Source of the DNA: Alphaproteobacteria bacterium | GTDB taxonomy: Bacteria > Pseudomonadota > Alphaproteobacteria > JAPULJ01 | Assembly: GCA_027295145.1 (NCBI GenBank) | Contig: JAPULJ010000194.1 | Location: 1 to 32,760, forward strand | DNA: 32,760 bases | Reading direction: 5' to 3' | Shown: piece after piece, positions 11,173-18,378 of the stretch | Numbering within the stretch: the stretch's first letter is position 1 | How the letters are laid out: each line of letters begins with the position of its first letter | Program-made: the position numbers and the translations under genes | The notes under the pieces: generated by a model | Database searches by the model: none | Seen by the model: the letters and a program-made list of their open reading frames with translations, nothing else | Told to the model about the DNA's origin: nothing

Positions 11173-11245
11173 TCCATGATCCGATCTGGCCGAGCGCCGG
11201 TAGGAGTTGATTCCAGTTGTACGCCACTCAGCACGCGTGATAGTT

Positions 11246-11414
11246 TCGCAGCGTCGATAGGGAGGAAGCCGGTGACGCTCTTCGGAGAAAAATCCGGCGC
11301 TGCCCCCGCAACTGTAAGGGAAGAGGCCGCGGCAACTGCCACTGGCGATTTTTCGCTGGGAAGGCGCCCGCGACCGACTACGCCCAGCCAGGACACTCCG
11401 CTATCGGCATGGAC
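11246..11414 (+). promoter_or_regulatory. Cobalamin (AdoCbl-type) riboswitch upstream of cbtB-cbtA
   Basis: Conserved core in order: GGAGGAAGCCGGTG ... AAAATCCGGCGCTGCCCCCGCAACTGTAAG ... GCCACTGG ... GCTGGGAAGGC ... AGCCAGGA. Flanking GTCGATAG / CTATCGGC pair to close the structure. Boundaries approximate. Confidence 0.93.
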
Positions 11415-11456
11415 AACTCGGATACGTCGGGTGAGACGTAGAAAAGGAGATCTAGG

Positions 11457-11648: not shown

Positions 11649-12401
11649 ATGATCAAGCGAGTTTTTCTCGCCGCACTCGCGGCGGGAGCGCTGGCGGCGG
11701 TGTTCATCACCGCTGTCCAAGCCTTCACGACCACCCCGATCATACTTCACGCAGAGGAGTATGAAAAAGGCCAAGCAAGCTCGGGACGCAGCGCAGTGCC
11801 CGTTATATTGACCGTTTTCGCGATGCCTCCTGCCGCGTCGCAATCAAGCCGCAACGGCGAAGTTCTGACCGTCCAAGGCGGCGCAACGAGCAAGAAAGTC
11901 TGGTCGCCCGGCGACGGGATTGAACGCACCCTATACACCGGACTGGCCAATCTGCTGGCCGCGGTCGGGTTTGCCCTGCTGATTGTTGCGTGCTTTGTGA
12001 TTCACGATAAACCGATAGACGCCCGCCGGGGCGTGATGTGGGGCATTGCGGGATTCGCAATATTCATACTTGCCCCCTCGCTTGGTTTGCCGCCCGAGGC
12101 GCCGGGCGCTAAAGCAGCCGGGCTAATAGATCGGCAGGTTTGGTGGGCCTTTGCGACGGCGATGGCGGCGCTGGGATTGTGGTTGATGGTTTTCACACGG
12201 CATGGGGCGCTGAAAGTCCTGGGCGTCATCGCGATCGCCGTTCCCCATCTTGTCGGGGCGCCGCAACCGGCCGAGCTAGGCGGCAGCGTGCCGCCCGAAA
12301 TTGCCGGGCATTTCGCGGCGGCTTCGATTGTCGTCAACGCGATTTTCTGGACATCGCTTGGATGGCTTGCCGGCACATTCTACGAGCGATTGAGCCGATA
12401 A
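11649..12401 (+). CDS. cbtA: CbtA-family predicted cobalt transporter subunit
   Basis: MIKRVFLAALAAGALAAVFITAVQAFTTTPIILHAEEYE, several TM segments, LGLPPEAPGAKAA..RQVWW motif; adjacent to cbtB under the riboswitch. Confidence 0.87.
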   Translation: MIKRVFLAALAAGALAAVFITAVQAFTTTPIILHAEEYEKGQASSGRSAVPVILTVFAMPPAASQSSRNGEVLTVQGGATSKKVWSPGDGIERTLYTGLANLLAAVGFALLIVACFVIHDKPIDARRGVMWGIAGFAIFILAPSLGLPPEAPGAKAAGLIDRQVWWAFATAMAALGLWLMVFTRHGALKVLGVIAIAVPHLVGAPQPAELGGSVPPEIAGHFAAASIVVNAIFWTSLGWLAGTFYERLSR

Positions 12402-15947: not shown

Positions 15948-16193
15948 CTAACTCACGGCAATCGGGACGTTGTATTCGAGCCCAGCGTCTTCCAACCAAC
16001 GCCAAGCGTAATCGGCGAAGCTGCGATGGACATAAATCTCGAATGACGGTTTGTCGGACGTCCGGTGGCGTATCACGCCTGTCTTGGCCAGAGGAGTGCA
16101 CACGACGGTGCCCGCACCGGACACGCCGGGATGCAAATCGTTCGTGCGGCCCATAGCGCCGAAGCTGAGCGTCATCACTCGTGGTGAATTCAA
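15948..16193 (-). CDS. Small hypothetical protein (about 74-81 aa)
   Basis: Open frame with protein-like C-terminus (PSFEIYVHRSFADYAWRWLEDAGLEYNVPIAVS*); the annotated start is a TTG abutting a terminator T-tract, so an internal ATG (MTLSFGAMGR...) is more likely. Confidence 0.4.
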   Translation of the reverse strand: MNSPRVMTLSFGAMGRTNDLHPGVSGAGTVVCTPLAKTGVIRHRTSDKPSFEIYVHRSFADYAWRWLEDAGLEYNVPIAVS

Positions 16194-16227
16194 AAAAAAA
16201 CCGGCGATGGGGTTGGCCCATCGCCGG
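16192..16227 (-). terminator. Rho-independent terminator (minus strand)
   Basis: Perfect 11-bp inverted repeat CCGGCGATGGG/CCCATCGCCGG with a 5-nt loop, followed on the minus strand by nine T. Confidence 0.85.
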
Positions 16228-16280
16228 CGAAGTTCGGCAAGTCAAAGGGAGGTGTTCGCGAGTCAACTGGAGTCGCGTAC
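16192..16280 (-). ncRNA. Candidate intergenic small RNA ending in a strong intrinsic terminator
   Basis: Minus-strand sequence ~tgtaCGCGActccagttgacTCGCGaacaCCTCCCtttgacttgccgaacttcg-CCGGCGATGGG-ccaac-CCCATCGCCGG-TTTTTTTTT: 5' hairpin (5 bp), single-stranded CCUCCC anti-SD-like motif, 11-bp GC terminator stem, nine U's. TAGATT -10-like element at 16287-16292 and TTAA-N7-TTAA upstream. Confidence 0.5.
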
Positions 16281-16303
16281 AGGCTTAATCTAGGAGAATA
16301 TAG

Positions 16304-16318
16304 TTAACACAGCGTTAA
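16304..16318. promoter_or_regulatory. CtrA-like box TTAA-N7-TTAA, with adjacent palindrome GTTAACGTTAAC (16314-16325)
   Basis: TTAACACAGCGTTAA read directly; exact match to the alphaproteobacterial CtrA full-site pattern. Lies between mmcB (+) and the candidate sRNA (-). Confidence 0.55.
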
Positions 16319-16337
16319 CGTTAACGAGTAATCAACC

Positions 16338-16796
16338 ATGATCGATCCGGGCGTTCCGAACGACCCACTGGCGGACGCCGACGAGGCCCAGCGCCTGGCG
16401 CGTGGGGTTGCCCGCTGGTTGCGGGATCTCGGATACAACAGCCTCGCCGAGTTCCGCCTCGGCAACGGGCGGCGGGCCGACATCGCCGGGCTCAACCGCA
16501 AGGGCCGCTTCGTCATCGTCGAGATCAAAACCTCCGAGGCCGACTTCCGGGCCGACGAGAAATGGCCCGAATACCTCGATTTCTGTGACCTGTTTTATTT
16601 CGCGGTACCGGAAGGCTTTTCCCACGAGCTGCTGCCCGACGGGCACGGAATTATCGTCGCCGATGCCTTTGGAGGCGCCGTCATCCGCGAGCCTGAAGAG
16701 CTAACCATGAACGCCGCCCGGCGCGCCGCCCAAACCCGCCGCTTCGCCCTCACCGCCAGCGCCCGCCTACGAGCCTTGCTCGATCCACGCCTGTAA
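16338..16796 (+). CDS. mmcB: MmcB family DNA repair protein
   Basis: LARGVARWLRDLGYNSLAEFRLGNGRRADIAGLNRKGRFVIVEIKTSEADFRADEKWPEYLDFCDLFYFAVPEGF, a nuclease-fold E-x-K-type motif and the alphaproteobacterial MmcB signature. Confidence 0.88.
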   Translation: MIDPGVPNDPLADADEAQRLARGVARWLRDLGYNSLAEFRLGNGRRADIAGLNRKGRFVIVEIKTSEADFRADEKWPEYLDFCDLFYFAVPEGFSHELLPDGHGIIVADAFGGAVIREPEELTMNAARRAAQTRRFALTASARLRALLDPRL

Positions 16797-16800
16797 AATC

Positions 16801-18378
16801 CTAAATCTGCCGATCGCGCCCTTTCCAGTAGGGTTCGCGCAGGATATTTTTGCGCACCTTGCCGATCGAGGTCTTGGGCAGAGCGTCGACGAAAGCGACG
16901 AGGCGCGGGCGCTTGTGGCGGGCGATCTTCGAAGCGACGAAGTCCTCGATCTCCGAGGCTTCGGCTTCGGCGCCGGGCTTGAGCACGATATGGGCCGCCG
17001 GGATTTCGCCCCAATGATCGTCGGGGATGCCGAAGACGGCGGCTTCGGCAATCGCCTCGTGGGCAAAGAGCACGTTCTCGATCTCGGCTGGATAGATGTT
17101 CTCGCCGCCGGAGATGATCATGTCCTTGGCGCGGTCGACGAGATAGAGAAATCCTTCCTCGTCACGGTAGCCGAGATCGCCGGTCTTGAGCCAGCCGTCC
17201 CTAGTGAAGGCTGCCGCCGTCTGCCCGGGATCGCGGTAGTACTCCTTGAAGAGATACCCCGCCTTCACGGTCACCTCCCCGACCTCGCCCTGGAGGACGT
17301 TGGCGCCGTCCCGATCGACGATCTTGAGCTGTAGCTCGGCGAAGGGCACGCCGACGCTGCCGGCCTTGTCGTGCAACCTCTCGGGCGCGCGGTAGCAGGC
17401 GGGCCCGATCTCGGACTGACCGTAATGCTCGAACATGACGATGTCGGGGAAGTGATCGAGTACCCGGTCGAGCAGCGCGTCGGGCATCGGCGAGCCGCCG
17501 TAGTTTATATAGCGCAGGCTTTTCAGTTTCTTTTCGCTGAAGTCCTGATCGGAGAGAAATCCATTGATCTGGGTCGGCACCATGCAGGCGGCGGTGATTT
17601 TCTCGCGCGCCACCATCTCGATAAAGGCACCCGCGTCCCACTGCCTTAAAAAGGCGAAGGTGGCGCCGCCGTGGATGCCGGTAGTAAACCACGAGAACAG
17701 CCCGGCGACGTGGAACAGCGGGCTGGCCAGGAAGATGATATCGTCCTCGAGCAAGCGAAACACCGGCCAGGCCATTTCCGAGGACATCACCCGTGCGGCA
17801 TGGGTGACGAGGACGCCCTTTGGGTGGCCCGTCGTGCCGCCGGTATAGGTAATACAGAAGGCTTCGCCTGGGTCGATCCGGACCGGGCAGGCGGTTCCCT
17901 TGGCGTCGGCGAGGAAGTCGTCAAGGGAGATCACATCGTTCTTCGGCGTGGAGGCCGCTAGCGCGGATTTCTCCTGGCCGACGCAGACCACGGTCTGCAA
18001 ACCCGGCAGGCTGGCCCGCACTTCGCTCAGCACCGACAACAAACCGGGATCGGCGAATACCGCTTCGATGCCAGTGCGGGCGATAACCCTGGCCAGATCA
18101 TCGCCAGTGTAGCGGATCGGAAGGTGAGCCTGCAGGCACCCGGCGCGCGCGGCGCCGAAATAGAAAACCGGGTAGTCGGCCTGGTTGGGGGCAAGGATCG
18201 CTACCGCGTGCCCCTTGCCGAGATCGCGAGCGAGTAGCGCGTTGGCAAATCGGTCCGCCGCGCGATCGAGTTCTCCATAACTCATGCGCACTGCGCCGTC
18301 GATGATCGCCGTCCGCTCGGGCGCACGCGATGCCGTCTCGCGCAATATATCACCGATAACCTTGCCGCTCATTGTCAC
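16801..18378 (-). CDS. AMP-dependent acyl/aryl-CoA synthetase
   Basis: ITYTGGTTGHPKGVLVTH (P-loop-like AMP-binding), YGQSEIG, GWLKTGDLGYRDEEGFLYLVDRAKDMIISGGENIYPAEIE, LPKTSIGKVRKNILR. Confidence 0.94.
   Translation of the reverse strand: MTMSGKVIGDILRETASRAPERTAIIDGAVRMSYGELDRAADRFANALLARDLGKGHAVAILAPNQADYPVFYFGAARAGCLQAHLPIRYTGDDLARVIARTGIEAVFADPGLLSVLSEVRASLPGLQTVVCVGQEKSALAASTPKNDVISLDDFLADAKGTACPVRIDPGEAFCITYTGGTTGHPKGVLVTHAARVMSSEMAWPVFRLLEDDIIFLASPLFHVAGLFSWFTTGIHGGATFAFLRQWDAGAFIEMVAREKITAACMVPTQINGFLSDQDFSEKKLKSLRYINYGGSPMPDALLDRVLDHFPDIVMFEHYGQSEIGPACYRAPERLHDKAGSVGVPFAELQLKIVDRDGANVLQGEVGEVTVKAGYLFKEYYRDPGQTAAAFTRDGWLKTGDLGYRDEEGFLYLVDRAKDMIISGGENIYPAEIENVLFAHEAIAEAAVFGIPDDHWGEIPAAHIVLKPGAEAEASEIEDFVASKIARHKRPRLVAFVDALPKTSIGKVRKNILREPYWKGRDRQI

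Follow-up and report, generated by a model that had tools for sequence, protein, structure and literature searches.

The minus strand upstream of mmcB, in the 32,760-nucleotide (32.8-kb) stretch of alphaproteobacterial DNA analysed here (the window), carries a compact set of elements that is best read as the gene of a stand-alone, lineage-specific small RNA (sRNA). This RNA would be an alpha-r8-like anti-Shine-Dalgarno regulator, possibly activated by CtrA, and we put the probability of this reading at about one half. Inspection of the sequence confirmed that each element named in an initial annotation of the locus is present at the coordinates given for it. These elements and the neighbouring genes are as follows.

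15948-16193, minus strand: C-terminal remnant of soxG, directly after the terminator (PF04268, E 2.9e-8)
16192-16228, minus strand: intrinsic terminator with a 12-pair stem, a loop of 5 and a U9 tail (sequence and fold)
16192-16280, minus strand: predicted sRNA of about 89 nt (fold -33.5 kcal/mol)
16239-16252, minus strand: unpaired core CCUCCCUUUGACUU, the presumed anti-Shine-Dalgarno seed (sequence and fold)
16252-16247, minus strand: CCTCCC (sequence)
16257-16277, minus strand: 5' hairpin CGCGA..TCGCG (fold -7.3 kcal/mol)
16287-16292, minus strand: -10-like TAGATT (sequence)
16324-16297, minus strand: alternative promoter pair TTAACG-N16-TATATT (consensus scan)
16304-16318: CtrA-type TTAA-N7-TTAA box, TTAACGCTGTGTTAA on the minus and TTAACACAGCGTTAA on the plus strand (sequence)
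16321-16324: additional TTAA adjoining the CtrA-type box (sequence)
16338-16796, plus strand: mmcB, divergent neighbour encoding a DNA repair protein MmcB-like product (PF06319, E 1.6e-42)
16801-18378, minus strand: acyl-CoA ligase gene (PF00501, E 6.4e-77)
18952-18482, minus strand: MarR-type gene, before the ligase gene (domain search)

Chance does not explain the terminator, which is the only one in the window to combine a perfect stem of at least 9 bp with at least 7 T in 9 positions. Its stem (16228-16200) contains 11 perfect base pairs, or 12 if one G-U pair is counted, and nine T residues follow at 16200-16192. A 94-nt segment of the minus strand folds with -34.1 kcal/mol (z = -4.3), a stability matched by 0 of 200 shuffled sequences and owed mostly to the terminator. 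Within the predicted 89-nt transcript, the computed ensemble leaves CCUCCC 98-100% unpaired.

The initial annotation had stated that no protein gene explains this terminator. That statement was wrong, because the acyl-CoA ligase gene ends at 16801 on the candidate's strand and the terminator at 16228 is the first good one past its stop; no other was found on the minus strand from 16801 to 16228. The ligase gene is convergent with mmcB, and the two gene ends lie 4 bp apart. The terminator might therefore end a MarR/acyl-CoA ligase mRNA (18952-16801) that runs antisense through mmcB, in which case the hairpin and CCUCCC would belong to a long 3' UTR that may be processed to an sRNA. We regard this arrangement as unlikely, since the mRNA would have to carry a tail of roughly 570 untranslated nucleotides antisense to mmcB, since the hairpin is immediately preceded by a promoter-like stretch containing a CtrA box, and since the candidate shares its core with alpha-r8 RNAs. 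The stand-alone sRNA keeps its place as the best reading, with its parts intact and its core shared with an alpha-r8 RNA of another genome (L027, see below), the ligase mRNA being a serious alternative owner of the terminator.

On the downstream side, the soxG (sarcosine oxidase gamma) piece covers positions 97-151 of the 152 in the PF04268 profile, the C-terminal third, and no N-terminal part is recognisable upstream of it; a rearrangement at the terminator probably left it behind as a remnant. Attenuation of the downstream reading frame is accordingly unlikely, that frame being a remnant that lacks its N-terminal part.

The core is rare in this genome. The pattern CCTCCCT-N1-3-GACTT occurs four times in 5.4 Mb, compared with once for a control, and these four sites are two canonical alpha-r8 genes, the candidate and one other. 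A rough Markov estimate, which presupposes 1500 terminators in the genome, gives about 0.02 cores expected beside any terminator. Across 387 genomes of the class, the exact sequence CCTCCCTTTGACTT has three further occurrences. One lies in L027, a true alpha-r8 RNA (RF00519, 54.9 bits), between its hairpin and its terminator; the remaining two were discarded as lacking the hairpin-core-terminator layout. A loosened core pattern returned one other site only in the class genomes, and it falls within coding sequence.

Conservation of the hairpin/CCUCCC block in relatives had been proposed as a test of the initial annotation, and the block is conserved in 0 of the 386 other genomes of the class, a set with no further member of the source genome's order. 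A covariance model built from the candidate alone found no orthologue among these genomes. Its 23 weak matches were mostly ordinary terminators, none (0/23) contained CCUCCC followed by GACUU, and the highest-scoring of them other than the candidate (34.4 bits) was a terminator-like hairpin devoid of CCUCCC. Likewise, a DNA search of 40 relatives yielded no match, and no conservation of the candidate beside mmcB was seen in loci L004-L021 or L131-L199. This record, together with the soxG remnant directly after the terminator in a rearranged locus, would fit a site with no functional gene, in which a leftover terminator has acquired CCTCCC...GACTT by chance. Such a coincidence strikes us as very improbable in light of the Markov expectation given above, and the hairpin, core and terminator are all intact and in the alpha-r8 order.

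CtrA control of the candidate sRNA is plausible, because CtrA, CcrM and GcrA are all encoded in the genome, the box matches one upstream of gcrA, and its predicted position is an activating one. Two CtrA homologues, which match the Caulobacter CtrA used as probe at 69% and 67% identity over the full query length, are encoded in the source assembly (G000, contigs C40:18565-19236 and C702:8517-9188); their presence in one assembly reflects duplication or contamination, the latter being estimated at 6.8% for this assembly. CcrM is encoded with 67% identity, and GcrA is also encoded. The box before gcrA in this genome, TTAACAAAGCGTTAA, is nearly identical to TTAACACAGCGTTAA at the candidate, and boxes of the narrower type TTAAC-N5-GTTAA precede gcrA as well as GGDEF- and PAS-domain genes. 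If TAGATT is taken as the -10 element, we infer that the sRNA starts near 16280, which would place the perfect TTAA-N7-TTAA at about -38 to -24. In Caulobacter, CtrA boxes that start around the -35 region are the activating kind; in the P2 promoter of ctrA, at which CtrA activates, the box begins at -39 (PMC4287350).

Other observations weaken the case for CtrA made in the initial annotation. TTAA-N7-TTAA is not enriched genome-wide, with 47 sites compared with 59 for a control, and the box is not conserved: no exact CtrA box was found upstream of 40 distant mmcB homologues, where near-matches occur in three, two of them in a single family, f102 (two genera). The pair of GANTC sites offered as a sign of cell-cycle control (starts at 16260 and 16270) was rejected as evidence, since both lie inside the predicted transcript and 1.5% of window stretches hold two such sites in 89 nt. 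Furthermore, a promoter consensus scan prefers TTAACG-N16-TATATT to the TAGATT reading. With that promoter the start would shift to near 16290, and CtrA bound to the box, which would then lie across the promoter core, would act as a repressor.

These results bear on the possibility that the sRNA is real and is not activated by CtrA, the box instead serving mmcB, acting as a repressor site between TTAACG and TATATT, or occurring by chance. The two f102 genera lend it support, having CtrA-like boxes before mmcB and no sRNA, as do the missing genome-wide enrichment and the scan that sets the box over the promoter core. We nonetheless judge it a doubtful account, given that the box has the spacing to TAGATT expected for activation, that its sequence matches that of the gcrA box, and that it would fall near the mmcB transcription start rather than at the mmcB -35 region. 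In the f102 loci L161 and L169 the CtrA-like boxes are TTAACAACGCGTTAC and TTAACAATACGTTAC, each ending 4 nt ahead of the ATG of mmcB, which suggests that mmcB may be under CtrA control in that family. A LexA box was looked for in the intergenic gap at the candidate and none was found.

In the reading that we prefer, a trans-acting sRNA of about 89 nt (16280-16192, minus strand) would consist of a weak 5' hairpin, an unpaired CCUCCC with GACUU, and a strong terminator with a long run of U. Phosphorylated CtrA (CtrA~P) at the predicted box, about -38 to -24, would activate its synthesis, and CtrA bound there would overlie the mmcB core promoter, so that mmcB could be repressed; the box, lying over the likely mmcB start region, would offer a place for such repression. 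The sRNA would likely act in the way of SisA, which represses mRNAs via this kind of anti-Shine-Dalgarno motif (PMC12559287), and of further anti-Shine-Dalgarno sRNAs. Probably aided by Hfq, its CCUCCC core would pair with purine-rich ribosome-binding sites and repress several mRNAs. The analysis shows the elements themselves, their computed fold and accessible core, the 14-mer shared with a true alpha-r8 RNA and the genes for CtrA, CcrM and GcrA; from these we infer that the sRNA is transcribed from the start given, that CtrA binds its promoter, and that the RNA depends on Hfq and represses targets in the manner described.

A bolder version of this proposal, which we hold only tentatively and think improbable, is that CtrA has captured the candidate as a diverged sibling of the alpha-r8 RNAs, such that high CtrA~P would at once turn mmcB off and produce an anti-Shine-Dalgarno sRNA whose seed has changed. 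In Caulobacter, the promoters of the alpha-r8 siblings SisA-D are unrelated, as are their expression patterns (PMC12559287). A CtrA box is absent from alpha-r8 promoters save for one near-match in 75. If true, capture of this kind would tie translational repression of the alpha-r8 type to the cell cycle, and a look-alike with an altered seed under CtrA would illustrate how new regulators recruit anti-Shine-Dalgarno RNAs, here an RNA that scores too low for the public family model to detect.

By the standard test the candidate is not an alpha-r8 RNA. The Infernal/Rfam search for suhB (RF00519) that had been suggested as a check was run and gave 14.5 bits, compared with a gathering cut-off of 41; the alignment does not place the model's CCUCCC on that of the candidate, and the sub-threshold match was set aside as mainly a match to the terminator. 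Rfam searches of the window and the locus gave sub-threshold matches only for the candidate. Elsewhere in the window, a cobalamin riboswitch (RF00174, 94.6 bits, 11224-11419, plus strand) precedes a CbtA-like cobalt transporter gene (11649-12401). A model of our own, built from 41 alpha-r8 RNAs, scored the candidate at 12.9 bits and some other terminators at 18.8, and gave 68 and 64 bits to the genome's two true alpha-r8 copies, which were themselves among the 41 model sequences. These two canonical genes lie elsewhere in the genome and score 48.3 and 45.8 bits with RF00519. One adjoins a reading frame resembling N-formylglutamate amidohydrolase (sequence judged by eye), whose gene is the usual neighbour of the alpha-r8 family and does not adjoin the candidate. 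In genomes G050 and G271, alpha-r8 sRNA genes (L053 and L056) stand in tandem, a few hundred bases apart.

The alpha-r14 or cuckoo RNAs (NfeR1, SmelA075; Rhodobacter CcsR) are built of about three hairpins, each of which carries CCUCCUCCC (PMC10746234, PMC3927594); the candidate shares with them a C/U-rich anti-Shine-Dalgarno motif in an unpaired region and a terminator hairpin, but has a single CCUCCC between two hairpins. The CtrA-motif promoters of Caulobacter include those of six non-coding RNAs (PMC4287350), with which the predicted sRNA would have in common a full TTAA-N7-TTAA near -35. From alpha-r8 RNAs it differs in several respects. The core reads GCGUUUCCUCCCUAGACUU in the canonical copies and GCGAACACCUCCCUUUGACUU in the candidate; the UU that directly precedes CCUCCCU in 41/41 alpha-r8 sequences is missing, ACA taking the place of UUU; and ACACCUCCCU agrees at 7 of 10 positions with the conserved alpha-r8 10-mer, UUUCCUCCCU (PMC12559287). 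In addition, the candidate has 8 nt more before the terminator, whose stem does not start with GGGCC. What stands of the proposed resemblance to the MmgR/alpha-r8 (suhB) type is its plan rather than its family score. As in MmgR of S. meliloti, SisA-D of C. crescentus and the other RNAs of RF00519, a weak hairpin is followed in order by a single-stranded CCUCCCU, GACUU and a U-rich intrinsic terminator. The overall length is similar, and the spacing from hairpin to core is alike, with GCG and then 3 nt (alpha-r8) or 4 nt (candidate) before CCUCCCU. In L027, CCUCCCUUUGACUU is identical and occupies the same place. Descent of the candidate from an alpha-r8 RNA is possible.
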